Shown here: positions 3,279 to 42,831 of the stretch, one piece after another
Numbering within the stretch: position 1 is the stretch's first letter
Layout of the letters: every line of letters begins with the position of its first letter
Origin: Verrucomicrobiaceae bacterium
GTDB taxonomy: Bacteria > Verrucomicrobiota > Verrucomicrobiia > Verrucomicrobiales > Verrucomicrobiaceae
NCBI GenBank assembly: GCA_027487315.1
Contig: JAIYDW010000214.1
Location: 1-43,929, forward strand
Length of the DNA stretch: 43,929 nucleotides
Direction: 5' to 3'
Notes under the pieces: generated by a model
What the model was told of the DNA's origin: nothing
What the model saw: the letters and a program-made list of their open reading frames with translations, nothing else
Databases searched by the model: none
Translations under genes and position numbers: made by a program

Positions 3279-4085
3279 TCAACCTTTTGCGCCTGTGCCG
3301 ATGACTGCGGGAGCGGGGGATGCCTTACCAAAGAAGGGCCACTTGGACGTGAGCCAGACGGCGATGGTGTGGTTGTCTTCACGGATGGAGCCACCGCGGC
3401 GAAAGAGGGTTTGCTCCATGTAGCCGATTTCGAGGCGGGTGGTGGCGGTGAGTTTTTGGCCGATGCCGATGAAGGCGCGGTTTTGGTCGAAGTCGTTGCC
3501 TTGGACGTTGGAACCGAAATTGAAGAAAACTTCGTTCCAGAGGGCGATGTAGGTTTTGCCAGAGTCGGTCAGGGGAATGGAGGTGCGGAGCATGTAGCGG
3601 ATGCGGTTTTCGTAGCGCCAGTTGGCGAGGTCGTAGTCGTCGCCAGCGGTGTTCTTGGTCATCTCACCGATCCAGCGTTGTTCGAGGCGGAGGCGTTGGG
3701 TCCAGTCGAGGCCGAGGAACTTGAAGTTGTGCTGGATTTGCTCCCAGGCGCGGTGTTCAGGGAACTCGGCGAGAGCGGGGTAGTCGCCATAGGGGTAGGT
3801 GCGGACGTAGGCCCAGCCGGCGCTGATGCTGATGGTGGGGCTGATTTGGTAGTTGATGCCGGGGCGGACGAGGAGTTGCTGCCATTCGTCACCGAGATCG
3901 GCGCGGCGATTCTGGACTTCGAGGTGAAGGCCCCAAGGGGTGTTGCCGAGGGGGTGATCGCCGACGTAGTTCAGCCAGAGGTTGGCGTTGGAGTCGGTCT
4001 TTTCGATTTCTGCGGGAAGGTTTCCTGAGAGGGTGATCAAAGCGATGAAAACGGCCAGTAGAGAAAAGGGGCGATGGGTTTTCAT
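3279..4085 (-). CDS. DUF2490-family protein, predicted outer-membrane beta-barrel
   Basis: 268 residues with a signal peptide (MKTHRPFSLLAVFIALITLS, cleavage likely after the alanine in LPAE). The mature protein has the DUF2490 pattern: 'LWLNYVGDHPLG' near the start, then alternating aromatic/polar strands such as 'LRLEQRWIGEM', 'WRYENRIRYMLR' and 'YIALWNEVFFNFG', typical of small outer-membrane barrels. The family has no assigned biochemical role. The gene begins 27 bases after the SulP gene on the same strand, so co-transcription is likely, and a role in outer-membrane passage for that system is possible but unproven. Confidence 0.75.
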   Translation of the reverse strand: MKTHRPFSLLAVFIALITLSGNLPAEIEKTDSNANLWLNYVGDHPLGNTPWGLHLEVQNRRADLGDEWQQLLVRPGINYQISPTISISAGWAYVRTYPYGDYPALAEFPEHRAWEQIQHNFKFLGLDWTQRLRLEQRWIGEMTKNTAGDDYDLANWRYENRIRYMLRTSIPLTDSGKTYIALWNEVFFNFGSNVQGNDFDQNRAFIGIGQKLTATTRLEIGYMEQTLFRRGGSIREDNHTIAVWLTSKWPFFGKASPAPAVIGTGAKG

Positions 4086-4112
4086 CTGGGTCGAGAGTGG
4101 ATAGGGAAATGG

Positions 4113-5750
4113 TTAACGGAGCACGCGGGCTGCCTGAGGATGATTGGACACGGATTGGTGTTGTTCCAGTCCTGAGATGATGAGTTCGCGATTTTCAAGT
4201 TTCCAGTCCTGGACCATTTCCTCCAGCTTTTTCATGACGGAGTGATCGACCAACCTGGATTCGCTGAGGTCGACTGTGACCTTCGAATGATGAGTGAGGC
4301 CGAGCAAGCGTTTGCGAAGTGGGAGCCAGTTGCTGAAGACGGCGGCTTCTTTGACTCGGACCAAGGGTAGACCCTCGGAGCAGGTTTCAATATCGGCCTT
4401 GGGTTTGAGGAGACGTAGAGGATGAACGCCGCCAACGGCATGCATGATCATTTTGATGAGGATGCCGGCGGCGATGCCGATGAGAAGGTCGGTAGCGAGT
4501 GTCACGATCATGGTCGTGAGGAAGACGACGAGTTGCCCCTTACCCACTTCCCACATGTGGAAAAACTCTTTTGGGGAAGCGAGATTGTAGCCGGTAAAAA
4601 CGAGCATGGCGGCGAGGGCGGCGAGAGGGATTTGATTGAGTAGAGCGGGGACAGTGGCAACAAGAGCCAAGAGGAACAAACCGTGCCAGAAATTTGACCA
4701 GCGTGTTTTGGCGCCATTGTTTTTATTGGCCGAAGAGCGAACGATTTCGGAGATCATGGGGAGGCCACCGATGCCGGAGGCGAGGGTATTGGCAATGCCG
4801 ACGGCCATGAGGTCACGGTTCAGGTTTGTGCGCCGCTGATAAGGGTCGAGCAAATCAACTGCCTTGGCGCTGAGGAGTGATTCAAGGGTTCCGACCAGGG
4901 AGAACATGATGATCCACTTGATGCTTTCCATTGAGGTGATCACGGAGAAGTCGGGGTGGGTGATGGCGGTGAGCATGTTACCTGGAAGCTGGACGAGGTA
5001 CTTGGGGCTGATCTCATACTGGTGTCCGGCCCAGGTGTAGAGGTGAGAGTGTGAGATGTCGAAAACCAGAGCGAGGGGGGTAGCGACGAGCAAAACGAGC
5101 ATGGGGCCGGGAATGGCTTGGACCATTTTGTTTTTGATGAAGAGACGTCCGAAGAGGAGTGCTAGGCTGACCGCGCCGATCAGGGCGATCTCTGGATTCA
5201 TGTTGGCAAAGCTATGCGGCAGTTCGGCGAGGAGTTCGAGTGGTTCCTTGGCGTGGGGGGCGACACCGAGGGCGACGTGGGCCTGCTTGGAAATGATGAT
5301 GACACCGATGGCGGCAAGCATGCCATGGACGGCAGCGACGGGGAAGAACTCGCCCAAGGTGCCGAGTTTGAAGGCGCCGAACAAAATTTGGATGACACCG
5401 GAAACGACGCCAACAGCGATGGCTCGCTGATAACCTAGCATAGGGTCGCCCTCTCCAAGTCCTTGGACGGCACCAAGAACGATGACGATCATTCCTGCGG
5501 CGGGTCCTTTGATCGTGAGTTCGGAGTTGCTCAGGAAAGGGGTGACGAGACCTCCAAGAACGGCCGTGAAGATGCCTGCGATGGGTGGGAAGCCGGATGC
5601 GATGGAGATGCCGAGGCAAAGCGGCAGGGCGATGAGGAAGACGAGGAATCCTGAAATGAGATCTTGTTTCCAATGGGCTTTGAAGCCTGCGAGGTCGCCA
5701 CGTGGGATGGGGCCGGAAGGTATGGCGAAGTGGGAGGGCGATTGAGACAT
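4113..5750 (-). CDS. SulP-family inorganic anion transporter with C-terminal STAS domain (copy 1)
   Basis: 545 residues. About 10-12 membrane segments carry SulP hallmarks: '[20 protein letters not shown]', '[13 protein letters not shown]' and '[15 protein letters not shown]'. A C-terminal STAS domain follows, with '[19 protein letters not shown]'. SulP proteins move sulfate, bicarbonate or other anions; the cyanobacterial BicA bicarbonate transporter belongs here. ATG 5750 matches the N-terminus of the paralogue at 13773-15413 (both contain a PIPRG segment), so the longer in-frame start at 5792 is not favoured. The gene is divergent from dabA with 196 bases between start codons. Bicarbonate or a co-ion is the likely substrate by context only. 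Confidence 0.88.
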
Positions 5751-5835
5751 ATGGAGATGGAGTTCGAGTGACGCTGCAATGAACGCACACAAACCAGCAC
5801 TGCTGATATCCCGTTGGGAGGGTAAAGTTTTATCG

Positions 5836-5909
5836 GAATCAAGGGGGGAGAACCCTGATTCTTTGGGGGTATCCCCTGGTTGCTGGAGACAAATGCCCCT
5901 TCAAAGGGG
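5836..5909. promoter_or_regulatory. Cluster of palindromes in the SulP/dabA divergent promoter region
   Basis: Three inverted repeats lie between the divergent start codons. GAATCAAGGG (5836-5845) pairs with CCCTGATTC (5853-5861) with one bulged base. GGGG-TAT-CCCC occupies 5866-5876. CCCCTT-CA-AAGGGG occupies 5896-5909. Any could be an operator or leader hairpin controlling both transcription units. No clear -35/-10 pair was recognised, so the assignment is inference from symmetry and position. Confidence 0.35.
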
Positions 5910-5946
5910 ATGGTTTGAGGGAAGCGAGTGGAGTTAGGTAGCGGGG

Positions 5947-8877
5947 ATGACAGATACACATGCAATCAATGGACACGGTCTTGCTGAGGACCCAAAGGTG
6001 CATCTGGTGCATTTGGTTGATCATGCGGCGCATTTGCTGCCGACGCAGGGGCCGATTGGAGTGTTTGTGCATCACAACACGTTGCATGCATTTCAGCATA
6101 AGATGTTTGATGAGGCGGTGGCTGAAGCCTCGAAGTTGTATGGAAGGCAGCCGTATTTGACGGAGGCGGCGTTTCGGGCGGAGCTCAAGCGCGGGCGGAT
6201 TTTGCCGGCGGATGTGGAGGCGATCCTGGAGCGTGAAGAGGAAGGGGAGATCCTGCCGAACCGGCTTTCGCGGAGGCAGCTGCGTCGATTGCTGTTGGTG
6301 CCTGGACTGAGGGAGTTCGATGCACGAACGTTGCCCTGGTTGCTGGATGAGGGGGGATGGTTGGAGCGGTTTCGTGATGACTTGGGTTCGGAGGCGCGGC
6401 ATGCGTTGATGCATGACCGGCCCGGCGCGCTCTGGAAGGCCTGTTTGGCAAAGGTTCCCCCGGGGAGCGCGACGGTTCCGGTGATTGATCGGCCACGGGA
6501 TGCGGTCTTACTGGCGACGGGAGTGGACGTGGATGAGGTGGTGAATCCGGTTTTGATTCGGTTGTGCGGTGCCTTTTTGGATCAAGGGATCGCGTATTGG
6601 TCGATGCCGTTTCGGGAGGAGGGATTGCTGGCGGCGTCGCGGCGTTTGTTGTTGGCAAAGATGACGTTTTACCCGATGGGATTGGAAGGTTTGCACAAGG
6701 TCTTGAAGGACCATGAGAGCCGGAAGTTAAGCGCGGTCGAAGTGGTCATGGAGATGCTGGAGTGTTTGGATGTGCCGCGCGAGCGATGGGGCAAGGTGAT
6801 TGAGGCGAAGTTGCTGACGTTGCCGGGTTGGGCGGGATTGATTCGAATGCTGGAGAACCAGCCGCATTTGGCGCCCCATGAGCGGCTGCCGTGTTCGTTG
6901 ATGGAGTTTTTGGCGTTGCGATTGACGCTGGATGCGGCGGCGGTGATCAACGCGGTGAAGGGGCCTGAGTTGCTGAAGGAAATGAAGAATCATGTTGAGG
7001 ATCCGGCGAAGGTGAGGCTGGGGGAGGTGGCGGAGTTGTTTGAGGTGGCTCAACTGGTTGGGCTGCCGAGCCATGAGTTGAGGGAGATGGGTCCGGAGAT
7101 GTTTGAGCGGTTTATTGGCGAGGTGAAGGCGTGCAATGATTTGGAACGACGGCGGATTTTTCAGAAGGCGTATGAGAGGAGGCATGAGAGGCAAATTTTG
7201 ATACCTCTGAGGAAGCACCGAGCGATGCCTCCGCTGCGGGTGAAAGGGGACAGGGTGGCGGCGCAGGTCTTTTTTTGCATCGATGAGCGTGAAGAGAGCA
7301 TTCGGCGGCACCTTGAAGAAGTGGATCCCCTTGTTGAGACCTTTGGAGCTGCGGGATTTTTTGGGGTAGCCGTGGATTATTGCGGGTTGGATGATCCTCA
7401 TGGGGTGGCACTGTGTCCGGTGGTGGTGACGCCAGGGCATGAGGTGACGGAGCAACCGGTGGCGGAGCATGCGCATTTGCATGATGTGAGGCAGTCGCGG
7501 CGAAGGATCTGGGCGAAGATGGCGCACGGAAATTTCATTTCGACGCGAACCATGATGCGGGGTTGGGTCAGCACGGTGACACTGGGTTTCTTTTCGATCT
7601 TCCCGTTGGCGTTTCGGGTTCTGAGTCCACTGACTTATGCCAAATTGATGAAGGCATTGAACAAACAGTTTTTGCCTGAGCCAAGGACGGAGTTGACGTT
7701 CATGCGAGACGACGCGGAGGGTTTAGCGGCGACTGAAGGGCTGTTGAGAGGTTTTAGTATCCAGGAAAAGGTGGATCGTGTGGCGGGTGTTCTCGGAGGT
7801 GCGGGACTGAGCAAGGGCATGGCGAGGCTGGTGGTGTTTTTGGGACATGGATCGACGAGTTTGAACAATCCATATGAGTCGGCGTATTGTTGCGGGGCGT
7901 GCGGTGGTTACAGTGGAGGTCCCAATGCGCGCTTGTTTGCGACGATGGCGAATCATCCGCAGGTGCGGGCGGGATTGAAGGAACGGGGGGTGCTGATTCC
8001 TGAGGATACGTGGTTTGTTGGGGGATATCACGACACATGCAGTGACGAGGTGGAGCTGTTTGATTTGGACCGAATGCCGGAGGATCACGCAGCTGACTTG
8101 GCGAGGTTGAAGAGTTCGCTGGACAAGGCTAGGGCGCGTAGTGCTCATGAGCGGACTCGGCGTTTTGCAACGGCGGGATGGATTGCTGACGCTGAGGGCG
8201 GGTTGCGGCATGTGCAGGAGCGTTCTGAGCATTTGGGTGAACCGCGGCCTGAGTATGGGCACTGCACGAATGCGGTGGCGATTGTTGGGCGGCGCGAGAC
8301 GACACGGGGGTTGTTTTTGGATCGGCGGTCATTCCTGGTGTCTTATGATGCGGGTCAAGATCTGGAGAATCAGGCGCTGGCGAGGTTGTTGGGGGCGGTG
8401 ATTCCGGTGTGCGGGGGAATCAGTCTGGAGTACTATTTTTCAACGGTCGATAACACGGGTTATGGCAGTGGAACCAAGCTGCCGCATAACATCACGGGCT
8501 TGATGGGAGTGATGAATGGGTATCAGGGAGATATCCTGACGGGCTTGCCTCTCCAGACGGTGGAGATTCATGAGCCGGTGAGGATTTTGTTTGTGGTGGA
8601 GACCACGCCTGAGCGTTTGATGTCGGTGGTCCGAGCGAACCCTGAGTTGACGGAATTTGTGGAGAATCGTTGGATTCGGATCTCGTGTTTGGATCCCGAT
8701 GACGGAGAGATTCGGGTTTATCGTGGTCAAGGGGTGTTTGAGGTGCTGGAAGGAGAGGAGGAGCCGTTGCCGGTCGCGACTTCGTCGGTGGAGTGGTATC
8801 AAGGGCATCGCGAGCATTTGCCGTTAGCGCGCATTGACGGAAATCATCCCGTGCAGGTGGAGGTGAGGGTGGCGTGA
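5947..8877 (+). CDS. dabA: DabA-family (DUF2309) inorganic carbon transporter subunit
   Basis: 976 residues, within the family range. DabA is a peripheral membrane protein with a beta-carbonic-anhydrase-like zinc site. With a membrane partner it turns CO2 into bicarbonate inside the cell, driven by a cation gradient. The site is intact: 'FFCIDEREES' holds Cys444 and Asp446, 'GHGSTSLNNP' holds His634, and 'YCCGACGG' holds Cys649, 15 residues after the histidine. These match the Cys/Asp/His/Cys set described for Halothiobacillus DabA. Homologues also occur in heterotrophs such as Staphylococcus (MpsB). It opens a plus-strand operon with dabB 49 bases downstream. A carbon-fixing lifestyle need not follow, since anaplerotic bicarbonate supply is enough. 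Confidence 0.92.
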   Translation: MTDTHAINGHGLAEDPKVHLVHLVDHAAHLLPTQGPIGVFVHHNTLHAFQHKMFDEAVAEASKLYGRQPYLTEAAFRAELKRGRILPADVEAILEREEEGEILPNRLSRRQLRRLLLVPGLREFDARTLPWLLDEGGWLERFRDDLGSEARHALMHDRPGALWKACLAKVPPGSATVPVIDRPRDAVLLATGVDVDEVVNPVLIRLCGAFLDQGIAYWSMPFREEGLLAASRRLLLAKMTFYPMGLEGLHKVLKDHESRKLSAVEVVMEMLECLDVPRERWGKVIEAKLLTLPGWAGLIRMLENQPHLAPHERLPCSLMEFLALRLTLDAAAVINAVKGPELLKEMKNHVEDPAKVRLGEVAELFEVAQLVGLPSHELREMGPEMFERFIGEVKACNDLERRRIFQKAYERRHERQILIPLRKHRAMPPLRVKGDRVAAQVFFCIDEREESIRRHLEEVDPLVETFGAAGFFGVAVDYCGLDDPHGVALCPVVVTPGHEVTEQPVAEHAHLHDVRQSRRRIWAKMAHGNFISTRTMMRGWVSTVTLGFFSIFPLAFRVLSPLTYAKLMKALNKQFLPEPRTELTFMRDDAEGLAATEGLLRGFSIQEKVDRVAGVLGGAGLSKGMARLVVFLGHGSTSLNNPYESAYCCGACGGYSGGPNARLFATMANHPQVRAGLKERGVLIPEDTWFVGGYHDTCSDEVELFDLDRMPEDHAADLARLKSSLDKARARSAHERTRRFATAGWIADAEGGLRHVQERSEHLGEPRPEYGHCTNAVAIVGRRETTRGLFLDRRSFLVSYDAGQDLENQALARLLGAVIPVCGGISLEYYFSTVDNTGYGSGTKLPHNITGLMGVMNGYQGDILTGLPLQTVEIHEPVRILFVVETTPERLMSVVRANPELTEFVENRWIRISCLDPDDGEIRVYRGQGVFEVLEGEEEPLPVATSSVEWYQGHREHLPLARIDGNHPVQVEVRVA

Positions 8878-8926
8878 GTTGGAGTGGGATTGTGAACTGT
8901 CCGTTTTTATTGGGGAACCAAATCGT

Positions 8927-10306
8927 ATGAATGTTGAAACTTTAGCTGGATTGCTCGTGCTGGTGCCGGGAGTTGTGTTTTTGGGCTTGGCGGTCACTTG
9001 GTTGTTAGGTTGGAATGGGCAGGAGCGTATTCTGGCGAGGGTGACGATGATCACTTATTCGTTGCTGACGTTAGGAGTGGCGGCACTGACGGTGATTTTT
9101 TGGCAACGGGGATTGATGGTGCTGACGGTGTCGTTTGGGAACTGGTTTGAGGTGGGGCACTATGGGTTTCCGTTGGTGCTGTTGTTTGATCGACTGTCAT
9201 TGCCGCTGGCTGGGGTGACGATTTTTTTGGTCGGCATCGTGGGGTCGTTCTCAGTGCGATATTTGCATCGGGACCCGGGTTACTTTCGATTCTTTTTGCT
9301 GCTGCATTTGTTTGGGTTTGGCGCGCTTTTGTTGTTTACGGCAGCGTCGTTGGATTTGTTGGTGGCGGGGTGGGAGTTGGTGGGGATCACGTCGGTGTTA
9401 TTGATTGGTTTTTTCCAGCATCGAAAGGAGCCGGTGAGGAATGCGCTTCGAGTGTTTGGCACGTATCGGGTGGCGGATGTGTTCATGCTGACGGGCGTGT
9501 TTTTGACGCACCACTGGTTTGGCACCGGGCTATGGCAGGAGTTGTTTCCCGGGACTTGGCCGGATAATGGACATGCGCTGCATGGGGCCGGAGCGGGGGT
9601 GGTTTGTTTGCTTTTGATTCTGGCGGCGTGCGGGAAGTCGTCGCAGGGACCGTTTTCGGGTTGGTTGCCGCGGGCGATGGAGGGGCCGACGCCTTCGAGC
9701 GCGGTGTTTTACGGGGCGATTTCAGTGCATGCGGGGGCGTACCTTTTGCTGCGGATTCAGCCGTTGATCGCGGAGTCGTGGTTGGCGACGGGGTTTTTGA
9801 TTTTTGTGGGGGTGACGACAGCGTTTTTGGCGACGCTGATTCACAGGACGTGCGCGGATGCGAAGACGTCGTTAGCGTATGCTTCGATGACTCAGTTGGG
9901 CATTATCTTCACGGAAGTGGGTATGGGATGGACGACATTGGCGCTGGTTCATACGGTGGGTCACGCGGTGGCGCGGACGGCGCAGTTTTTGAGGGCACCG
10001 TCGATGTTGCATGATTACCATCGGCTACATTCGGCCGCAGGGGGCAAGTTGGCGGAGACGGGTTCGCATTACGATTCCTTTGTGCCGAAACCGCTGCAGC
10101 ATTGGATGTATACGCTGGGGGTTGAGAGAGGGTGCTATGATGCCCTGTTGGAGCGGTTCGTTTTGACGCCGGTTCGGTATCTGTCGAGTTTGATTGGACG
10201 GTTGGAGCCGGCGGACTGGGCAGAGAAGTGGCGGGCGAAGAAGGCGGAGCGCGAAGCGGGAGAGATTCGAGTGAACAAGTCAGGAAAGGATGAAGTGCAT
10301 GTTTGA
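8927..10306 (+). CDS. dabB: DabB-type NuoL-like proton/cation-conducting membrane subunit
   Basis: 459 residues, almost entirely hydrophobic, roughly 12-14 membrane helices. It has Complex I antiporter-subunit signatures: 'LVAGWELVGITSVLLIGFF' with the channel glutamate, 'GKSSQGPFSGWLPRAMEGP' with the conserved lysine, and 'HAVARTAQFLRAPSMLHD' near the end, where NuoL usually has a lysine and this protein has arginine. In DAB complexes this subunit supplies the ion flux that powers DabA. ATG 8927 is chosen over an upstream in-frame TTG at 8879 because it starts directly before the first helix. The gene directly follows dabA and overlaps the next gene by 8 bases. Confidence 0.88.
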   Translation: MNVETLAGLLVLVPGVVFLGLAVTWLLGWNGQERILARVTMITYSLLTLGVAALTVIFWQRGLMVLTVSFGNWFEVGHYGFPLVLLFDRLSLPLAGVTIFLVGIVGSFSVRYLHRDPGYFRFFLLLHLFGFGALLLFTAASLDLLVAGWELVGITSVLLIGFFQHRKEPVRNALRVFGTYRVADVFMLTGVFLTHHWFGTGLWQELFPGTWPDNGHALHGAGAGVVCLLLILAACGKSSQGPFSGWLPRAMEGPTPSSAVFYGAISVHAGAYLLLRIQPLIAESWLATGFLIFVGVTTAFLATLIHRTCADAKTSLAYASMTQLGIIFTEVGMGWTTLALVHTVGHAVARTAQFLRAPSMLHDYHRLHSAAGGKLAETGSHYDSFVPKPLQHWMYTLGVERGCYDALLERFVLTPVRYLSSLIGRLEPADWAEKWRAKKAEREAGEIRVNKSGKDEVHV

Positions 10307-11690
10307 GCTGAATTTTCCATTTTTGTTGATTGGATTGGCGTCGACGCTTGTGGCGGCCTTGGCCTTGTGGCGGGTGCGCTCGGTGGAGGTGGCGAGATGG
10401 TGGGGGTGTGTGGCAGCGGGTTTCGCGGCGGTGATGTTTGCGATTGCCGGACGGGTGAGTGCGATGAGCGGGCACATGATGTGGGATCCCATGGCGACTG
10501 GATGGCTTGAGGTGGATGCGCTTGATGCGTTGCCGTTGGTGGTGTTTTCGCTGCTGACCTTGGTAACGCTGATGGTGGCGCCGAAGAGGGATTTGGGAGG
10601 GGCGAGCGTGGCGGGGATGTTGTTGATTTTGGTTGGGACATCGCTGGCGTATTCGGCTGGGACGCTGGCGGGGATGGTGGTGGGATGGTGGGTGACGTGT
10701 GCGCCGGGAATGATGGGGGCGTTTGGGCCGAGAAAGGATCGATTAGCGTTGGGGATTCAGGTGATGGGTTGTGTGGCGTTGACGGGTGCGGCGGCATTGA
10801 CGGGATTTGGAGCGGCTGATTTTGAGAATTCTGAGGCGTTGGCGTTTGGGCTATTGATGTCGGCGGTCGCCTTGCGAAAGGGGATTTTTCCGGCGCATTC
10901 CTGGGTGTTGGATGCGTATGATCGGGGGCCGTTGTTGCCGAACGCGCTGCTTTTTAACGGGCATCTGGGAGCGATGATGCTGTTGCGGGCGGAGTCGACG
11001 CATTTGGCCGGGGCGGCGCAAAACATTCTGGAATGGGTCAGTCTGGGGGCTTTGGGGACGGCCTTGTTTGCTTCCGTGGCAGCGATTGCGCAAAGGCGGC
11101 CGCGTCGGATTCTGGCGCTGCTGACGGTGAGTCAGTCGGCCTTTATTCTGGCGGGGCTGGGAAGCCGGAATGTTGAGGGGATCACGGGGTCTTTGGTGCA
11201 CTGGTTGGTCGTTGCGGTAGCGACGACGGGGTTGGTTTGTATCTTGCGCGCGGTGGAGGCGAGGCGTGCGGATGCGATGGCTGGTGATGATTATTTGGGA
11301 TTGGCGGTGCGAGCGCCACGACTGGCGGTGTTTTTCCTGGTGTGTGGATTTGCGTTGGTCGGGCTGCCAGGAACATTGGGGTATTGCGCGGAAGATTTGC
11401 TATTCCATGGGGCGCTGGCGAGTCATCCGATCTTGGGGCTGTGCCTTTTGATAGCGACCGCGCTGAATGCGATTCACCTGGTGCGACTGTATTCGCAGTT
11501 GTTTTTGGGTCGTCGAATGGACGAGGTGCCGACGGTTCCTGATGCGATGTCGAGGGAGCGTTGGGCGCTTGCTGCGTGTGTGGTGTTTTTGGTGACGGCT
11601 GGAGTGATGCCGGGGAAGTTGGTGGGGTGGCGGGCTGCCTCGGCGGAGCGATTGATGGAAGCGTTCCAGGGCGCGGGCAAGGGGCATTGA
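10299..11690 (+). CDS. Second NuoL/M-like membrane subunit of the DAB operon
   Basis: About 463 residues and strongly hydrophobic, with roughly 12-14 predicted helices. 'LRKGIFPAHSWVLDAYDRGP' corresponds to the 'K..Q.P.H.WLPDAMEGP' signature of proton-pumping antiporter subunits, followed by 'NALLFNGHLGAMMLLR'. It is much more divergent than DabB. ATG 10299 has AGGAAAGG ending about nine bases upstream and overlaps the dabB stop by 8 bases, which suggests translational coupling; ATG 10290 in the same frame is an alternative. Characterised DAB systems need only one membrane subunit, so its role here, as extra channel, partner or regulatory half, is unknown. Its stop codon is one base from the convergent kinase gene. 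Confidence 0.8.
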   Translation: MFELNFPFLLIGLASTLVAALALWRVRSVEVARWWGCVAAGFAAVMFAIAGRVSAMSGHMMWDPMATGWLEVDALDALPLVVFSLLTLVTLMVAPKRDLGGASVAGMLLILVGTSLAYSAGTLAGMVVGWWVTCAPGMMGAFGPRKDRLALGIQVMGCVALTGAAALTGFGAADFENSEALAFGLLMSAVALRKGIFPAHSWVLDAYDRGPLLPNALLFNGHLGAMMLLRAESTHLAGAAQNILEWVSLGALGTALFASVAAIAQRRPRRILALLTVSQSAFILAGLGSRNVEGITGSLVHWLVVAVATTGLVCILRAVEARRADAMAGDDYLGLAVRAPRLAVFFLVCGFALVGLPGTLGYCAEDLLFHGALASHPILGLCLLIATALNAIHLVRLYSQLFLGRRMDEVPTVPDAMSRERWALAACVVFLVTAGVMPGKLVGWRAASAERLMEAFQGAGKGH

Positions 11691-11691
11691 G

Positions 11692-13032
11692 CTAGGTAAG
11701 AGGGTCCAGGTCGGGCTGTTCGAGGCGGATGGGGACTGTGACTGTCAAGGTGAGGCCTTTTTGGTTGCCTGAATCCAGGGTCAGGACGCCGCCGCACTCG
11801 CGGGCGCGGGCGCGCATGCCGATCAGGCCGAGGCTTTGGCGAGTGGGGACGGGTTGGGATGGGAGGCCGCGGCCGTTGTCCTGGATGCGAAAGTTTAGGT
11901 GCTTGCCTTGAGCGGTGAGGGTGATGAAGACTTCGGTGGCTTCAGCGTGGCGGGCGATATTGGTTAGGGCTTCCTGAGCGATGCGGAAGAGATGGGTTTC
12001 GAGTTCGCTGTGGAGGCGGTCTTGGAAACTGGATTCGTAGTTGACGGTGATTCGGGTGCGTTGGGCGAATTTTTCGGTGAGCCAGCGGAGGCCGGCGTCG
12101 AGGCCAAAGTCGTCCAGGATGACGGGGCGGAGAAGTTGGGAGAGTTCGCGGACGTTGGCGATGGCTTCGTCGACGAGATGGAGGTTATCAGCGCGCAGAG
12201 CTTCGGGATCTGAGACGCTTTTCCGGCTGATGTTGGCGCGAACGGCGGCGAGGGATTGGCCGAGTTCGTCATGGAGTTCGTGGGAGAAACGGCGGGCGGT
12301 TTCCTCCTGACTTTGGAGCATGTGCCAAGAGACGTGGTTGAGTTCGTCGGCTTGTGATTCGATGCGGTGAATGCTGTGCCGGACATAGGCGATGGTGCCG
12401 GCGGCGCAAAGAAGGGCGAGGATGAAACAGGCGCTGAGGAGGAGGGCGGATTCGCGGGAGAACTCCTGGAGTTGGAGGCCGATTTTTTGGTCGACTTGGG
12501 CCAGGTGCTCAGTGCTGTCGAGGATGAGGTCGTGGATGATTCGAACGACAGCGTCATGGCGGGAGAAGAGTTCGTCGAGGCGCTCCCGATTGAGAGGGCC
12601 GGGGGTGTCTTGATCCAGTGAGGTGCGAACTTGCCGGGTGAAGTTGCGAGTGGCTTCGGTGAGGTTTTGCCAGGGGATGGCCTGGGGCGTGGAGCTGGCT
12701 TCGGTGGCCAGGCGGGCGATGGTGCGGTCGGCTTGGTCGAGCGCGTCCAGCGGGATTTTTCGTTCGGTGATGTCGACGGTGCGGGCGAGACGGTGGAGGG
12801 CGAGAGCGAGGGCGTCTTCTTCGACCTGGGCTTCGTGGAGGAGGCGGGTGATAAGGATTTGTTCGCGGACGAGTTCTTCGGCGCTGGAGCGAATGTTGCG
12901 ACCTTCGCGGACGGAGACGAGGCCTGCGGCGCCGAGTAGGAGCATGACGAGGCCAAAGCCTGTGATCAGGGCGATCAAGACGGCCCGACCTGTGAAGTGG
13001 TCGCGGAAGGTGGACCAGGAGGAGATGGGCAT
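11692..13032 (-). CDS. NarX/DegS-type sensor histidine kinase
   Basis: 446 residues. A first membrane helix lies at about residues 17-40, an extracytoplasmic region of about 150 residues follows, and a second helix is at about 195-216. A HisKA_3 dimerisation domain has 'FSHELHDELGQSL' with the likely phosphorylated His254. A HATPase_c domain follows with 'FRIAQEALTNIARHA' (N box) and 'IQDNGRGLPS' (G box). The sensory region is mostly helical and has no recognised ligand pocket. It is encoded 18 bases after the response regulator, so the two form a pair. Convergence with the DAB operon and position behind SulP copy 2 suggest that it monitors a transported ion, carbon status or pH. That is inference. 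Confidence 0.88.
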   Translation of the reverse strand: MPISSWSTFRDHFTGRAVLIALITGFGLVMLLLGAAGLVSVREGRNIRSSAEELVREQILITRLLHEAQVEEDALALALHRLARTVDITERKIPLDALDQADRTIARLATEASSTPQAIPWQNLTEATRNFTRQVRTSLDQDTPGPLNRERLDELFSRHDAVVRIIHDLILDSTEHLAQVDQKIGLQLQEFSRESALLLSACFILALLCAAGTIAYVRHSIHRIESQADELNHVSWHMLQSQEETARRFSHELHDELGQSLAAVRANISRKSVSDPEALRADNLHLVDEAIANVRELSQLLRPVILDDFGLDAGLRWLTEKFAQRTRITVNYESSFQDRLHSELETHLFRIAQEALTNIARHAEATEVFITLTAQGKHLNFRIQDNGRGLPSQPVPTRQSLGLIGMRARARECGGVLTLDSGNQKGLTLTVTVPIRLEQPDLDPLT

Positions 13033-13050
13033 GGGAGGGTGGAGGGCGCG

Positions 13051-13701
13051 TTAGTCGATGAGGCCGTTGCGCATGGCGAAGCGGACGAGTTCACCGATGG
13101 AATGCAGATTGAGCTTTTCCATGATGCGACCGCGATGGGCTTCGACGGTGTAGACGCTGAGGTTGAGCGTGGTGGCGATCTCCTTGTTGGTCTTGCTTTC
13201 GGCGATCATTTGGAGGACTTCGCGCTCACGGGAGGAGAGGAGGTCGATGGGATTGGTGACGTGCTTGCGGTAGTCTTCGAGGACGGCGTCACTGACTTCG
13301 GGGCTGAGCCAACCTTTGCCGACGGCGACGGCGCGAACAGCGGCGAGGAAGTCCTGATGGCTGGAGTCTTTGAGGAGGTAACCGCGGGCGCCTGCACGGA
13401 GGATTTCGCGGACGTAGACGCTGTCCTTGTGCATGGATAGGGCGAGGATGCGGATTTTGGGGCAGGACTTTAGGATGCGGCGGGTGGCTTCGATGCCGTT
13501 GAGTTCGGGCATGGTGACGTCCATGACGATGACGTCGGGGAGAAGGGACTCGGCGAGTTCGAGGGCTTCGCGGCCGTTTGAGGCTTCACCGACCACTTTG
13601 AAATCCCATTCGGCTTCGAGGATGTGGCGGAAGCCATTGCGGACGACGGCGTGGTCGTCGGCGAGGAGGATGGAAGTGGTCGTTGCCGGAGAGGTAGCCA
13701 T
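13051..13701 (-). CDS. NarL/FixJ-family response regulator
   Basis: 216 residues, the standard two-domain length. The receiver domain has acidic residues Asp15-Asp16, phosphoacceptor Asp61 in 'VIVMDVTMPELNGIEA', and the conserved lysine in 'YLLKDSS'. A LuxR-type HTH follows: 'LSSREREVLQMIAESKTNKE' and 'LSVYTVEAHRGRIMEKLNLH'. It is the cognate partner of the kinase gene 18 bases downstream, and it starts 71 bases after the stop of SulP copy 2 on the same strand. Possible targets are the adjacent SulP and dab promoters, but no shared operator was identified. Confidence 0.9.
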   Translation of the reverse strand: MATSPATTTSILLADDHAVVRNGFRHILEAEWDFKVVGEASNGREALELAESLLPDVIVMDVTMPELNGIEATRRILKSCPKIRILALSMHKDSVYVREILRAGARGYLLKDSSHQDFLAAVRAVAVGKGWLSPEVSDAVLEDYRKHVTNPIDLLSSREREVLQMIAESKTNKEIATTLNLSVYTVEAHRGRIMEKLNLHSIGELVRFAMRNGLID

Positions 13702-13772
13702 CGTGAAGAAAGGGTAGGACTCAGGGTGGGGAAGTCAAGCCGCTGACCCTGAGGAGAGGGACTCTAGACGGG

Positions 13773-15413
13773 TCAGGATTTGCTGCGCAAGCGCGCGGCC
13801 TGGGGGTGAAGGGAAACGGGTTTGAGGGACTGGAGGCCTTCGATGATGAGTTGGCGGTTTTTGAGTTGCCAGTCCTGGGCCATTTCCTGGAGCTTTTTGA
13901 TGACGCTGTGGTCCACAAAGTGGGTAGCGGAGAGGTCCACGGTGACCTTTGGGTGGGAGGAGAGGGATCTCAGTTTGCGCCTAAGTCCGAGCCAATTGGT
14001 GAAGACGACGGCTTTTTGAACTTTGACGACGGGGTGGCCGGAGGATTCGTCGATGGAGGCCTCATGCCGAAAGAGGTTGGTGAAGGAGACCTTGCCGACG
14101 AACATGTGAAGGAAGATTTTCATGACGATGCCAGCGGCGACACCGATGAGGAGGTCGGTGGCGAGGGTGGCGAGGATGGTGGTGATGAAAACGGTGAGTT
14201 GGCCTCTACCGATCTCGAGCATCTTTTTGAATTCTTTGGGTGAGGAGAGGTTGTAGCCAGTGAAGACGAGCATGGCGGCCAAAGCGGGCAGGGGAATTTG
14301 GTTGAGGAGCTCTGGAACGCTGGCGACCATGATGAGGAGGAAGGTTCCGTGCCAGAAATTGGACCAGCGGGTACATGCGCCGTTGCTTCGGTTGGCGGAG
14401 GAGCGAACGATTTCGGAGATCATTGGGAGGCCACCGATGCAGGCAACGAGGGTATTGGCGGTGCCGACGGCGAAGACATCCCGGCTGAGGTCGGTGCGGC
14501 GCTGCCAGGGGTCGGTCAAGTCGATGGCTTTGGCGCTGAGGAGGGATTCGAGGCTGCCAATGAGGGCGAAGATGGTGATCCAGTAGAGGCCAGTGGTGGA
14601 GGCGATGTTTGAGAAGTCGGGGAAGGCGATGCCATCGAGCATGTTCAGGGGTAGGGAGACGAGGTAGGTGCTGTCGAGCTTGAGGTAGAGGCTCATGGGG
14701 ATGCCATAGAGCAAGGCCCAGACGGGGCCGGGGATGAGTTGGACGAGCTTCAGTTTGAATAAGGGGCGGACGAAAAGGATGACGAGGCAACCGACGCCGA
14801 CGATGGCGGCGCTGGGGTTGGTGTGGCTGAGGCTTTCCGGGATGCGTCCGATGAGTTCGAATGCCTCGCCATGCAGGTGGCGGGCTTTGATGGACTGTCC
14901 GAGCAGCATGACGTGGATCTGCTTGGAGATGATGATGATGCCGATGGAAGCGAGCATGCCATGAACGGCAGCGACGGGGAAGAATTCGGCCAGTTTGCCG
15001 AGCTTGAAGACGCCAAAAAGAATCTGGATGATGCCAGCGATGACGCCCACGGCCAACATGCTTCGGTAGCCGATCATGCCGGCTTGTTCGGCGCTCATGC
15101 CAGCGGAGACTTCCGGAGTGAATGCGGCGACTGTTCCAAAGACGGCTGCAATCATGCCGGCGGCGGGGCCTTTGATGGTCAATTCCGAGTTGCTTAAAAA
15201 AACCGTGAGCATGCCGCCGACGACAGCTGTGAAAATGCCTGCGATGGGGGGGCAGCCACTCGCCTTTGAGATGGCGAGGCACAGGGGCATAGCGATCAAG
15301 AAGACCAAGAAGCCGGAGAGGATATCCTTGCCAAAGCAGGCTTTGAATCCGGCGAAGTTACCGCGGGGGATGGGGCTTTGGAGTGCCGGATCGGGAGTGG
15401 TATCCAATGACAT
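13773..15413 (-). CDS. SulP-family inorganic anion transporter with C-terminal STAS domain (copy 2)
   Basis: 546 residues, one longer than copy 1 and clearly its paralogue: '[20 protein letters not shown]', '[15 protein letters not shown]', '[17 protein letters not shown]' and '[15 protein letters not shown]' all have near-identical counterparts. The STAS domain keeps '[19 protein letters not shown]'. Differences cluster in the loop after the third helix pair and in a longer segment near '[18 protein letters not shown]', so the copies may differ in affinity, ion or regulation. It lies upstream of the response regulator and kinase genes and may share their transcript. Bicarbonate transport is plausible from the DAB context; sulfate is the alternative. 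Confidence 0.88.
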
Positions 15414-15675: not shown

Positions 15676-17652
15676 CTAGGTTTCGAAGTAGGTGTAACCG
15701 CGCATGCCGGCTTCGAAGGCGTCCATGATTTCGCGGCGTTCGCGGGCGGTGATGCGGTTGCTGTGGACGGCGCTTTCGGCGAGTTGGCGGAAGCGGCTGA
15801 GCATGTCTTTGGGCTCGTATTCGCAGTAGGTGAGGACTTCGGAGACGGTGTCGCCTTCGATTTCCTGGGTGTATTTGAGTTTGCCGTTCTCGATGCGGAC
15901 GGAGACGACATTGGTGTCACCGAGGAGGTTGTGGAGGTCACCGAGGGTCTCTTGATAGGCACCGACGAGGAAGATGCCGACGACGTAGTCTTCGTTGGTG
16001 TTTTCGAAGTCGATGTCGTGGAGGGGAAGGCTGTGGTTGAGTTCGCCGGAGTGGGCGAACTTGTCGATTTTGCCATCGGAGTCGCAAGTGATGTCGGAGA
16101 GGACGGCGTTGCGGGTGGGTTTGTCTTTAAGGTGGTGGATGGGCATGACCGGGAAGATTTGGTCGATGGCCCAGAGGTCGGGGAGGCTTTGGAAGACGCT
16201 GAAGTTGCCGTAATAGTAGTCGGTCATGACCGTCCGGACGCGTTCCATTTGAGCACTGTCGACGCCCATGGCTTCCTGGCATTTGGCGACCCAGGAGAGG
16301 AGTTCCCAGTAGAGTTCCTCGCCTTGAGAGCGCTCGCGGAGGGAGACTTTGCCGTAGCTGAACTCGCTGCGGAGTTTGTCGCGGTAGTAGCAGGCGTCAT
16401 TGTAGATTTCCTGGAGGCGATCCATGTCGGTGGAGGCTTTGAGGCCTTTGCCGTTGCGGGTGTCTTCCTGGAGTTCGTAGAGGTTGCGGACGAGGGGCGG
16501 GGCGTTTTCGGGGACGCTGACCTGGCGGTGGGGTTCGAAGCGGTTGACGTCGAGGATGTTGACGAGGAGGACGGAGTAGTAGGCGACGATGGCGCGGCCG
16601 GACTCGGTGATGATGTCGGGGTGGGGGACACCGGCTTCACCGGTGACTTCGGAGACGGCTTCGATGATGTCGGCGCAGTATTCCTGGGTGCCGTAGTTGC
16701 TGCTGGCTTCGGTGGTGCCTTTGAAGCCGTCGTAGCTGATGGCGAGACCGCCACCGAGGTCGAGGATGCCCATGCGAGCGCCTTCCTGGACGAGGCCGAC
16801 GTAGACGCGGGTGGCTTCGGTGACGGCTTGGCGGATGGCGCGGATGTTGGGGATCTGGGAGCCTTGATGGTAGTGGAGCATGCGGAGGCAGTCGAGCATG
16901 CCTTCTTCACGAAGGTGGTCGACGACGTGCATGAGTTGGGAGATGTTCAGGCCGAAGACGGAGGAGTCACCGCCGGAGCCAGCCCAGTGGCCGGCGCTTT
17001 CGGTGGAGAGGCGGAAGCGGACGCCGAGGGTGGGGCGGACGCCCATTTTTTTGCAGCGCTCGAGGATGAGTTTGAGTTCGCTGGGCATTTCCAAGACCAT
17101 GATGACTTGGAGGCCCATTTTTTGGGCGTACAGGGCGAGGTCGATGAACTCTTCGTCCTTGTAACCGTTGCAGACGATGTAGGCCTGCGGGTCGTGCATG
17201 TAGGAGAGAGCGGCGATGAGTTCGGGCTTGCTGCCGGCTTCGAGGCCGTAGTGGTATTTGCGGCCGTAGCGGGTGATTTCCTCGATGACTTCCTGTTGTT
17301 GATTGACCTTGATGGGGTAAACGCCGCGATAGACGCCCTGGTATTTGGCTTCTTTGATGGCGGCGTTGAAGCCTTCGTTGAGTTCATCGATGCGCCAGCG
17401 GAGGAGGTCGCCGAAGCGGAGGAGGACGGGGAGTTGGGTGCCGCGTTCGCGGAGGCCGCGGGCGACCTGGATGAGGCTGACGGGTTTGGTGGAGTTACCG
17501 TCTTTGAGGTTCACGACGACCTCGCCTTTGGCGTTTATGTCAAAGTAGCGATGGCCCCACTCGCGCACGCCATACATGTGGGCGCTTTCTTCGACGCTCC
17601 AAGGGGGGGCGGCGGCTTTCGAACGGGTGGTGGAGCGGGGGCGTTTTTCCAT
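15676..17652 (-). CDS. speA: Biosynthetic arginine decarboxylase
   Basis: 658 residues, the usual size of SpeA. It converts arginine to agmatine and CO2, the first step of the agmatine route to putrescine, using pyridoxal phosphate and Mg2+. The likely PLP lysine is Lys115 in 'GVYPIKVNQQQEV'. Other conserved blocks are 'LGVRFRLSTESAGHW', 'LHYHQGSQIPNI', 'LDLGGGLAISYDG' and 'PDIITESGRAIVAYY'. The C-terminal half holds the extra helical domains of this decarboxylase class. It appears monocistronic: a terminator of the next upstream gene lies before it and a 262-base gap follows it. The 262 bases downstream hold no gene that I can support. Confidence 0.93.
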   Translation of the reverse strand: MEKRPRSTTRSKAAAPPWSVEESAHMYGVREWGHRYFDINAKGEVVVNLKDGNSTKPVSLIQVARGLRERGTQLPVLLRFGDLLRWRIDELNEGFNAAIKEAKYQGVYRGVYPIKVNQQQEVIEEITRYGRKYHYGLEAGSKPELIAALSYMHDPQAYIVCNGYKDEEFIDLALYAQKMGLQVIMVLEMPSELKLILERCKKMGVRPTLGVRFRLSTESAGHWAGSGGDSSVFGLNISQLMHVVDHLREEGMLDCLRMLHYHQGSQIPNIRAIRQAVTEATRVYVGLVQEGARMGILDLGGGLAISYDGFKGTTEASSNYGTQEYCADIIEAVSEVTGEAGVPHPDIITESGRAIVAYYSVLLVNILDVNRFEPHRQVSVPENAPPLVRNLYELQEDTRNGKGLKASTDMDRLQEIYNDACYYRDKLRSEFSYGKVSLRERSQGEELYWELLSWVAKCQEAMGVDSAQMERVRTVMTDYYYGNFSVFQSLPDLWAIDQIFPVMPIHHLKDKPTRNAVLSDITCDSDGKIDKFAHSGELNHSLPLHDIDFENTNEDYVVGIFLVGAYQETLGDLHNLLGDTNVVSVRIENGKLKYTQEIEGDTVSEVLTYCEYEPKDMLSRFRQLAESAVHSNRITARERREIMDAFEAGMRGYTYFET

Positions 17653-38239: not shown

Positions 38240-39145
38240 TTAGGAGCGTTGGGAGAGGGAGACTAGGATGGCTTTTTGGGCGTGGAGGCGGTTTTCGGCT
38301 TGGTCGAAGATGGTTTGAGCGTGGGCTTCCATGACTTCGTTGGTGATTTCTTTGCCGCGATAGGCGGGGAGGCAGTGCATGACGAGGGCGCCGGGTTTGG
38401 CGTGGGTCATGAGGGTGTCGTTGATTTGCCAGGGGCGGAGGATTTCGATGCGCTCGGCGGCCTCCTCTTCTTTGCCCATGCTGACCCAGACGTCGGTGTA
38501 GATGGCGTCGGCATCTGTCACAGCGGCGATGGGATCGTCGGTGATGGTGAGGTTGGATTGGTCCGGGAGGGTGGCGAGGAAGCTGGCGGCGGGTTGGAAT
38601 GCTTTGGGGGCGCCGATGACGATGTGGAAGCCGCCGCGGACGGCGGCCCAGATCCAGGAGCGGGCGACGTTGCAGTCGCCATCGCCCATGAAGACGACGC
38701 GTTTGTTTTTCCAGGAGCCGAGGCGTTCCTGAATGGTGAGGAGGTCGGCGAGGATTTGACAGGGGTGTTCGTCATCGGTGAGGGCGTTGACGGTGGGGAT
38801 GCAGGAGTAATGGGCGAAGTCGACGACGTCCTGCTGGGCGAAGGTGCGGATGACGGCGCCGTGGATCATCCGGCCGAGGACGCGAGCGGTGTCTTTGATG
38901 GGTTCACCACGGCCGAGTTGGATATCGGCCCCGGAGAGGAACATGGGGGTGCCGCCGAGTTCGCGGATGCCGACTTCGAAGCTGACGCGGGTGCGGGTGG
39001 AGGACTTGGTGAAGATGAGGGCCCACTGCTGACCGGCGAGGACTTGGGGGGAGGTGGTGCGATCCTTTTTCAGGGTGGCACCGAGGTTGACGAGGGATTC
39101 GATTTGCTGGCCGGTGAGGGCTTCGATGGAGAGGAGGTGGTCCAT
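38240..39145 (-). CDS. argF: Ornithine carbamoyltransferase
   Basis: 301 residues. It joins carbamoyl phosphate and ornithine into citrulline. The carbamoyl-phosphate loop is 'KSSTRTRVSFE' (47-57), 'EHPCQILADLL' is at 126-136, and the ornithine-binding 'HCLPAYRGKEI' is at 257-267. Sequences match the anabolic enzyme. It is the fifth gene of the argC-J-B-D-F cluster. The 48-base gap from argD is occupied by an ACAGGATT repeat, which therefore forms the leader directly upstream of its start codon. Confidence 0.94.
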   Translation of the reverse strand: MDHLLSIEALTGQQIESLVNLGATLKKDRTTSPQVLAGQQWALIFTKSSTRTRVSFEVGIRELGGTPMFLSGADIQLGRGEPIKDTARVLGRMIHGAVIRTFAQQDVVDFAHYSCIPTVNALTDDEHPCQILADLLTIQERLGSWKNKRVVFMGDGDCNVARSWIWAAVRGGFHIVIGAPKAFQPAASFLATLPDQSNLTITDDPIAAVTDADAIYTDVWVSMGKEEEAAERIEILRPWQINDTLMTHAKPGALVMHCLPAYRGKEITNEVMEAHAQTIFDQAENRLHAQKAILVSLSQRS

Positions 39146-39166
39146 GAGGGGGGCGGGCTTTTTTTT

Positions 39167-39204
39167 GGACAGGATTTACAGGATTTTTTTGGATTAACAG
39201 GATT
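39167..39204. repeat. ACAGGATT-family dispersed repeat, copy 3, overlapping the argD stop codon
   Basis: Units GGACAGGATTTACAGGATTT and GGATTAACAGGATT flank a T-run. On the minus strand the unit AATCCTGTTAATCC supplies the last residues (Glu-Ser-Cys) and the TAA stop of argD at 39194-39196. The flanking GGGCGGGCTTTTTTTT sequence is shared with copy 1. Confidence 0.85.
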
Positions 39205-40540
39205 CCTTATTTGGGAGGATTTTTGATTTATGGGATGATTGGAGGATCCTGTTGAGGGTGTTGTGGAAGATTTGGAGGGCTTCGGAGGCGTGCGCTTCGG
39301 TGAGGTTCATGGGGGGGAGCCAGCGGACGACTTTGGGGCCGGCGGGGACGACGAGGAGGCCGTCTTGGATGAGTTGGGCAGCGAGCCAGATGGAGGCGGG
39401 TTTGCCGGAGGCTTGGACGGCGGGGAGGGCATTGAGTTGGGCTTCGTCGAGTTCGAAGCCGATCATCATGCCGAAGGCGCGGATGTCCGTGATGAGGGGG
39501 TGTTTCCAGGCGGCGACTTCGCCTGCGATGCGTTTGCCGAGGGCGGCGGAGTGGGAGGCGAGGTGGTCGCGTTTGATGACACCGAGGGTGACGAGTCCGG
39601 CGGCGCAGGCGAGGGGGCTGCCGCCGTAGGTGGTGCCGTGGGTGCCGGGTCCGAGGAGGTGGATCAGATTGCGGATGGGGGATTGCGGATTGCGGACTTC
39701 GGCATCGCGCACCCAGAAGGCGCCGAGGGGGAAGCCGGAGCCGATGGATTTGGCCCAACTGATGGCGGAGGGTTGGATTTCATCGCCGGGGACGATGCTG
39801 CGCCAGCCGCAGGTGTCGCCGGTGCGACCGAAGCCGCATTGGACTTCGTCGAGGAGGAGGAGGAGGTCGTGCTGGTCGCAGAGGGACTGGACGGCGCGGA
39901 GGAACTCGGGAGTGGCGGGGTGGACGCCGCTTTCTCCCTGGATGGGTTCGAGCATGATGGCGACGGTGCGCTCGGTGATGGCGGAGCGGAGGGCGTCGAT
40001 GTCGTTGAAGGCGGAGTAGACGAAGCCTGGGACGATGGGGCCGAAGCCACCGTGGATTTTTTCCTGGGCGGTGGCGCTCATGGCGCCGAAGGTACGGCCA
40101 TGGAAGCTGCCTGAGAAGGTGATGATCTCGTAGCGGGGGGAGCCGTCGGGGAGAGGAGTGTTGACGCCGTATTTGCGGGCGAGTTTGATCATGCCTTCGT
40201 TGGCTTCGGCGCCGCTGTTAGAGAAGAAGCAGCGGCCGGGGATGTGGACGAAATCTTCGACGATGAGGCGGGCGAGTTGGGCCTGCTGTTTGATGCAGTA
40301 CCAGTTGGAGACGTGGATGAGTGTGCGGGCCTGGTGGGCGATGGCGTCGGCGACTTCGGGGTGGGCGTGGCCGAGAGGGCAGACGGCGACACCGCCGGCG
40401 AAGTCGAGGTATTTTTTGCCGGTGCTGTCCCAGAGGTAGGGGCCTTCACCGCGCTCAGGCCAGATGGGAAAGCGGCCGTAATTGGGGAGGACGTATTGGT
40501 CCAACCAGGCGGGGTCGAAGTCGAGATCAGCGGAGGGCAT
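39194..40540 (-). CDS. argD: Acetylornithine aminotransferase with in-frame repeat insertion
   Basis: 448 residues, somewhat longer than the usual 390-400. It is a PLP-dependent class III aminotransferase of arginine synthesis. Conserved blocks are 'FFSNSGAEANEGMIK', 'LLLDEVQCGFGRTG' (Asp231) and the PLP lysine Lys264 in 'SWAKSIGSGFPLGAFW'. Between 'GAFWVR' and 'GPGTHGTTYGGSPLAC', normally nearly adjacent, lie about 15 residues including 'EVRNPQSPIRN', encoded by five heptamers at 39667-39701. The frame stays open across it. The insertion is near the active-site entrance, so activity may be altered but is probably kept. The C-terminal residues and stop come from an ACAGGATT repeat. Confidence 0.9.
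   Translation of the reverse strand: MPSADLDFDPAWLDQYVLPNYGRFPIWPERGEGPYLWDSTGKKYLDFAGGVAVCPLGHAHPEVADAIAHQARTLIHVSNWYCIKQQAQLARLIVEDFVHIPGRCFFSNSGAEANEGMIKLARKYGVNTPLPDGSPRYEIITFSGSFHGRTFGAMSATAQEKIHGGFGPIVPGFVYSAFNDIDALRSAITERTVAIMLEPIQGESGVHPATPEFLRAVQSLCDQHDLLLLLDEVQCGFGRTGDTCGWRSIVPGDEIQPSAISWAKSIGSGFPLGAFWVRDAEVRNPQSPIRNLIHLLGPGTHGTTYGGSPLACAAGLVTLGVIKRDHLASHSAALGKRIAGEVAAWKHPLITDIRAFGMMIGFELDEAQLNALPAVQASGKPASIWLAAQLIQDGLLVVPAGPKVVRWLPPMNLTEAHASEALQIFHNTLNRILQSSHKSKILPNKESC
39667..39701. repeat. GATTGCG-type heptamer array inside argD
   Basis: Five units: GATTGCG, GATGGGG, GATTGCG, GATTGCG, GACTTCG. The same unit type forms the intergenic arrays at 38167 and 41460. It keeps the argD reading frame open. 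Confidence 0.88.
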
Positions 40541-40545
40541 CTTTT

Positions 40546-40585
40546 GGGACAGGAGTGACGGAATTTTTGGGGATTAACAGGATGG
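40546..40585. repeat. ACAGGATT-family dispersed repeat, copy 4
   Basis: GGACAGGAGTGACGGAATTT and GGGGATTAACAGGAT lie in the argB-argD gap, upstream of the argD start at 40540. The copy is more diverged than copies 1 and 3 but keeps unit order. Confidence 0.7.
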
Positions 40586-40601
40586 GATACGTGGGGAACG
40601 C

Positions 40602-41456: not shown

Positions 41457-41459
41457 TTC

Positions 41460-41494
41460 GATTGCGGACTGCGGATTGCGGATTTCGGATTGGG
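41460..41494. repeat. GATTGCG-type heptamer array in the argJ-argB gap
   Basis: Five units: GATTGCG, GACTGCG, GATTGCG, GATTTCG, GATTGGG. It begins four bases upstream of the argB start codon and ends six bases before the argJ stop, so it replaces the normal ribosome-binding region of argB. Confidence 0.9.
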
Positions 41495-41500
41495 GAGGGG

Positions 41501-42787: not shown

Positions 42788-42831
42788 GACGGTACGGGAG
42801 AGAGAGATTGAGGGACTGTTGGGAGGACGAA

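Follow-up and report, generated by a model that had tools for sequence, protein, structure and literature searches.

How DAB complexes couple ion flow to the hydration of CO2 is an open question, and the sole structure, that of the two-subunit DAB2 published in 2026, places an essential glutamate on the finger of its zinc subunit DabA. There the outer proton half-channel is made up of the DabA finger helix and helices 12-13 of the 15 transmembrane (TM) helices of DabB; E444A and E444Q both abolish activity, and Ile151 of DabB was read by the authors as loss of the regulatory Glu144 of NuoL (PMC13144422). A paper of 2017 reported gene clusters of the order SulP-DabA-NuoL-NuoM under the name COGNAT clade C, before the function of DAB was established, and proposed an outward ion pump with an unknown substrate (PMC5700660). 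Here we analyse a clade-C locus at positions 3279-15413 of a 43,929-nucleotide stretch from a Verrucomicrobiaceae bacterium (contig JAIYDW010000214.1; the whole stretch is hereafter the window), with the gene order DUF2490(-), sulP1(-), dabA(+), dabB1(+), dabB2(+), kinase(-), regulator(-) and sulP2(-). We regard it as probably the inorganic-carbon supply module of a heterotroph, arranged around a three-subunit DAB (DabA, a truncated NuoL-like DabB1 and a NuoM-like DabB2) with SulP transport.

A first-pass annotation of the sequence had not recognised the arrangement of twin SulP genes and a kinase around DAB. The core gene content of the locus is that reported in 2017 and is not new. All the genes it claimed were found at their positions and in their orientations by open reading frames and profile matches. 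What is new here is the loss of the finger acid in clade C, the truncation and residue switches of DabB1, the DabB2 with its TM12 glutamate, and a paired box between sulP1 and dabA. Our literature search, which left most subscription journals and supplements outside its reach, found no paper tying a kinase pair, a box or the residue changes to clade C.

The dabA gene (5947-8877, + strand) encodes the zinc subunit and matches PF10070 with 779.5 bits over model positions 1-747 of 747. The four zinc-site residues named in the first-pass annotation, Cys444, Asp446, His634 and Cys649, align with C351, D353, H524 and C539 of Halothiobacillus neapolitanus DabA2, and the ligands C, D, H and C are kept in 105/105 DabA sequences, the window included. 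A full-length PF10070 domain, these ligands and an adjacent PF00361 subunit with conserved channel residues place the complex within the DAB/DAC family. The finger is another matter: at the alignment column of Glu444 (H. neapolitanus numbering) two-subunit DABs carry E or D in 22/22 cases, against an acidic residue in 0/83 clade-C DabA, and only 2/83 of the latter have any acid in the wider finger segment. The window DabA has a non-acidic residue at this position and departs here from the two-subunit DAB2 type.

DabB1 (8879-10306, +) likewise departs from the 15-helix DabB of DAB2. By alignment and AlphaFold2 (AF2) model it has about 11 TM helices followed by a soluble helical tail; its alignment with NuoL extends to around residue 380, as does the match of the model, and no TM helix is found in the tail after residue 376. 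We compared eleven positions across 86 sequences in the numbering of H. neapolitanus DabB2. Four are switched, I151->E, H260->Y and K347->R each in 86/86 and S316->A in 79/86, while K235, S256, K310 and H339 are kept in 86/86 and R182, D185 and H343 in 85/86. As read from the alignment, the clade-C switch I151->E restores the interface glutamate of NuoL.

The second antiporter-like subunit, DabB2 (10290-11690, +), gave a model with a predicted local distance difference test score of 92 that matches the NuoM fold over 453 residues (root-mean-square deviation 2.3, Z 44). Its Glu368-Asp369 pair lies at the TM12 position, in the second half of a broken helix (363-378), and is aligned with NuoM Glu405; the two TM12 acids are conserved as E in 58/67 and D in 61/67 sequences. 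Among the matches listed in the fold searches the solved chain of DabB2, 9rd0_B, does not appear, which has no bearing on similarity. Two NuoL-like subunits had been proposed in the first-pass annotation; both are present, but they are of different types: DabB1 is a NuoL that stops after TM11, and the fold of DabB2 is of the complete NuoM type.

Since the DabA finger acid is missing and DabB1 is without TM12-15, the half-channel is most likely supplied by DabB2, and sequences and models together suggest that in clade C this subunit has probably taken over the proton path. In the mechanism we propose, DabA would hydrate CO2 to bicarbonate in the cytoplasm, powered by protons (or sodium) crossing the membrane subunits. 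The outer half-channel, TM12 glutamate included, would come from DabB2, in place of the DabA finger acid and TM12-15 of DabB1, and the two antiporter-like subunits would pass charge to each other in the fashion of complex I. It is conceivable, at somewhat less than even chances, that clade-C DABs form a mechanistically distinct class of energised CO2 hydrase: a half-NuoL/whole-NuoM charge relay would take the place of the finger in a heterotrimer whose coupling departs from that of DAB2 in how many ions, or which ions, are used per CO2.

The same subunits bear on the reverse direction, the proposal of the COGNAT authors, in which an exergonic DabA reaction would pump ions out and build a membrane potential, the ion count being determined by how many antiporter subunits there are. 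The presence of two such subunits and the restored NuoL-type ion-pair glutamate, used by complex I for coupling, fit with this idea, as do its proposal in PMC5700660 and the first naming of MpsABC as a membrane-potential-generating system. We nevertheless consider it very improbable: the biochemistry of DAB2 is that of membrane potential-driven uptake (PMC13144422), the zinc site and its surroundings are of DAB type, and the cluster holds no gene for a redox or other cofactor.

To see how far the module is conserved we scanned species genomes, which gave 57 loci (Verrucomicrobiota, Acidobacteriota, Elusimicrobiota, Armatimonadota, Bacteroidota and others), and same-family loci were fetched too; the tallies cover 79 loci of clade-C DabA, 45 of them with wide flanks. 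The order dabA-dabB1-dabB2 is near constant, with a SulP gene mostly next to dabA, in the 57-locus scan as well as in the family loci. DabB1 follows dabA in 70/72 and DabB2 is present in 62/64 clade-C loci of sufficient length. Among the 45 well-flanked loci, SulP lies within 7 kb in 36, a regulator is seen in 25, a kinase in 26, and the full set of SulP, regulator, kinase, DabB1 and DabB2 in 23; DUF2490 occurs in 15, beside SulP and in two phyla. When 240 Verrucomicrobiota genomes were sampled, the clade-C type of DabA was found in the window's own family only.

The proposal of one regulated module is thereby supported: the SulP, DabA, DabB1 and DabB2 genes stay linked in different phyla, often with kinase and regulator nearby, and the same box is found at sulP and dabA. 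The SulP-DAB-SulP-kinase order is conserved in its core and often in its kinase, but the twin-SulP layout is not: a second SulP-type gene is present at 5/79 loci, mostly as a pair of a plain SulP and a SulP-carbonic anhydrase (CA) fusion, and in two Verrucomicrobiaceae the second gene is such a fusion. Two cases were peculiar in other respects. A record titled Bordetella parapertussis (L055) holds a clade-C locus resembling those of Bryobacterales, with SulP 74% and regulator 77% identical to the window, and its label is probably wrong. In another genome (G023 C1:986000-1035000, loci L114-L116) three different DAB types share some 30 kb and are interspersed with SulP genes and a SulP-CA fusion.

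The region between sulP1 and dabA contains two operator-like boxes, which were absent from the first-pass annotation. Box A, ATCCCGTTGGGAGGGTA (5808-5824, +), is an exact copy of the box pattern on the sulP1 side and a candidate operator, and box B (5894-5911, -), an inverted copy with one mismatch nearer dabA, is a candidate dabA operator. The sulP1-dabA intergenic regions in general hold two inverted copies of ATCCC-N7-9-GGGTA, often running into a TAWAAT-like hexamer. Over 21 such regions 25 exact copies were observed against 0.11 expected from dinucleotide shuffles, and in 492 kb of locus DNA 38/41 exact copies were less than 350 bp upstream of dabA. Of the three remaining, two stand just upstream of sulP1 where an insertion parts it from dabA; the box stays with each gene, sulP and dabA, even at loci where these are separated. 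The Acidobacteriota loci have box copies with one mismatch. We hence regard the paired box, from its sequence pattern, as a candidate operator of sulP and dabA.

A wide regulon of the box was rejected, as the own genome has 7 exact matches against 6 for the reversed pattern, so that outside the locus the pattern is at background. In this genome neither the exported CA nor the third SulP has an exact box nearby, nor is there one at the SulP2/regulator operon of the window.

The linked two-component system is of the NarL type, with a receiver and GerE regulator and a HisKA_3 and HATPase kinase. The gene of the sensor histidine kinase (11692-13032, -) runs towards dabB2, from which it is 1 bp away at their convergent ends; its product has two TM helices that flank some 160 residues of periplasmic domain. 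The NarL/LuxR-type response regulator (13051-13701, -) shows 60-86% identity to regulators at related DAB loci. The cut-offs of the nearest named NCBIfam model, MctSR, were not reached (MctS 150.8 of 700 bits, MctR 198.1 of 300 bits). The kinase would sense a periplasmic signal and phosphorylate the regulator, and we infer that the latter binds the paired boxes, from which it would switch on sulP and dab jointly. TACCCCT fits the NarL heptamer TACYYMT.

The two transporters SulP1 (4113-5750, -; PF00916 207.7 bits), which starts with ATG at 5750 and is divergent from dabA, and SulP2 (13773-15413, -), its paralogue upstream of regulator and kinase on the same strand, are 59% identical and belong to the same clade of DAB-linked SulPs. 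The closest orthologues of SulP1 occupy the same slot in relatives. A tandem duplication as the origin of SulP2 was rejected: in a quick tree without bootstrap, on which the clade also relies, its closest relatives hold the dabA-divergent slot in other genomes, so that the window has two variants of a single transporter rather than a recent tandem copy. SulP-CA fusions of about 760-800 residues are common in the family (L095, L096, L097, L126, L116, L123 and others), several of them in the regulator-kinase operon of a DAB locus; those of L095, L096, L097 and L126 lie inside or next to this operon, and CA-fused SulPs group with unfused, DAB-adjacent ones in the quick tree. The fusions at DAB loci support bicarbonate as the substrate of the fused type. 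For SulP1 and SulP2 we infer a bicarbonate role from linkage and co-regulation; SulP1 (and SulP2) would move bicarbonate or swap it for another anion.

Several observations weigh against the module as we read it. The DabB1-DabB2 relay draws on single-chain models and sequence. L061, the sole locus without a separate second subunit, lacks the finger acid as well, and at L058 no DabB2 match was found; the DabB of L061 (2198-4015) is longer (606 residues), and the additional membrane part at its C terminus may represent a fused DabB2 remnant. Some boxes occur at loci with neither kinase nor regulator seen on the stretch examined, and common descent accounts in part for the box shared by close relatives. 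Finally, the sodium ligands of BicA (D258, T262, G300 and T302; PMC13249358) are not kept in SulP1, where a phmmer alignment gives D258->E, T262->S, G300->S, A301->E and T302->I.

These replaced ligands speak for a different role of the transporters, namely transport of sulfate or an organic anion by SulP1 and SulP2, which would then share with the DAB only their regulation, for example for charge or pH balance. The best solved relative is SLC26Dg, and neither the SulP family-model cut-offs nor that of the BicA model NF050096 (880 bits) were reached, the window SulPs scoring 126.5 and 108.9 bits with the latter. Yet the tight linkage to DAB over several phyla, the shared box, the fusion of CA to related SulPs at loci of this kind, and a locus (L049) where the DAB genes are directly followed by SulP and two beta-CA genes speak against this reading, and we find the sulfate or organic anion alternative unlikely. 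The L049 genes in question (11803-14828) are from a metagenome-assembled genome labelled Bacteroidetes, and the two beta-CA-like genes are adjacent.

An autotrophic CO2-concentrating role was rejected, as RuBisCO was found in 0/68 family genomes, the window genome included, in agreement with the heterotrophic look noted in the first-pass annotation. In 12/42 genomes behind other clade-C loci there are PF00016 matches of 52-235 bits, which do not distinguish RuBisCO from RuBisCO-like proteins. The bicarbonate would instead feed ordinary carboxylases under scarce CO2, a likely use by analogy with MpsAB (PMC6689103, PMC8567241).

The CA content of the genomes raises the alternative that the DAB is an MpsAB/DAB-type stand-in for a missing cytosolic CA, with cytoplasmic bicarbonate supply as its only role, for which Staphylococcus aureus, with MpsAB and no CA, is a precedent (PMC8567241). 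The window genome has one beta-CA only, which starts with a lipoprotein signal, and no alpha-CA was found there. A CA of the iota class was rejected, the one match being weak (22 bits) and to an exported SnoaL-like protein. Further, a soluble cytosolic beta-CA is found in 1/34 family genomes with clade-C DabA vs 17/34 without (Fisher p = 1.3e-5, kinship ignored), the latter count becoming 18 with G013, whose soluble beta-CA the search pattern missed. On the other side, the exclusion gives p = 0.12 inside the largest genus, many family genomes carry a SulP-CA fusion or a signal-less CA anyway, the window genome has a gamma-CA-like gene, and the sister genome G007 is without both DabA and soluble beta-CA. 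A beta-CA is also present in 35/42 genomes behind other clade-C loci (Acidobacteriota and other phyla). CA replacement as a general rule was rejected, the pattern fitting the window's family and not Acidobacteriota and others; as the sole role of the window's DAB we consider it possible but doubtful. At L164 (G048), L168 (G059) and L172 (G020) a beta-CA without signal peptide is fused behind an N-terminal region resembling a small P-II-like regulatory domain.

The source genome (5.87 Mb, 256 contigs, 98.7% complete) has one DabA gene and three SulP genes. We count the DUF2490 protein, a predicted outer-membrane beta-barrel (3279-4085, -; PF10677 168.9 bits), as part of the unit, as it lies downstream of sulP1 with a gap of 27 bp. 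This barrel recurs beside SulP in two phyla and could be an anion pore of the module. An arginine decarboxylase gene (15676-17652) adjoins SulP2, and genes for ornithine carbamoyltransferase (OTCase), a class-III aminotransferase, an amino acid kinase and a semialdehyde dehydrogenase, as in arginine synthesis, are found at 38240-43884. The GC skew is strongly positive throughout positions 1-43000 (0.21-0.54 in each kb, whichever strand the genes are on), which is unusually strong.

A large natural clade that has lost the finger residue and four NuoL-like TM helices and gained a NuoM is a natural swap, through which the coupling model can be tested by mutation. Energised carbon uptake appears as a conserved and probably regulated trait in RuBisCO-free heterotrophs of the Verrucomicrobiota, and the candidate operator offers a route to the signal of the module.

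Compared with known systems, the window SulPs share the SulP/SLC26 fold with cyanobacterial BicA, but SulP1 is without its sodium ligands and both score far under the BicA model cut-off. MpsAB of S. aureus is likewise a DAB homologue in a heterotroph and rescues CA loss (PMC6689103), but the accessible parts of the literature mention no linked SulP, kinase or NuoM and propose a sodium-bicarbonate symporter. With COGNAT clade C the window shares ybcC (dabA) upstream of nuoL together with COG0659 (SulP) and COG1008 (NuoM); the accessible parts of that paper (PMC5700660) report no kinase/regulator pair, box, residue switches or SulP-CA fusion. The three-gene DAB1 of H. neapolitanus is also a DAC with a third membrane protein, but this is a small hypothetical TM protein and not a complete NuoM (PMC13144422). 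DAB2 of the same organism (DabA2-DabB2, PDB 9rd0, PMC13144422) has in common with the window the DabA zinc ligands, the PF10070 fold and a NuoL-like partner with K235, S256, K310, H339, H343, R182 and D185. It has two subunits where the window has three genes, and it retains the finger Glu444 and TM12-15 that are missing from the window DabA and DabB1; the window locus has Glu for I151, Tyr for H260 and Arg for K347 in DabB1, dabA as the first gene, and a linked SulP and two-component system.

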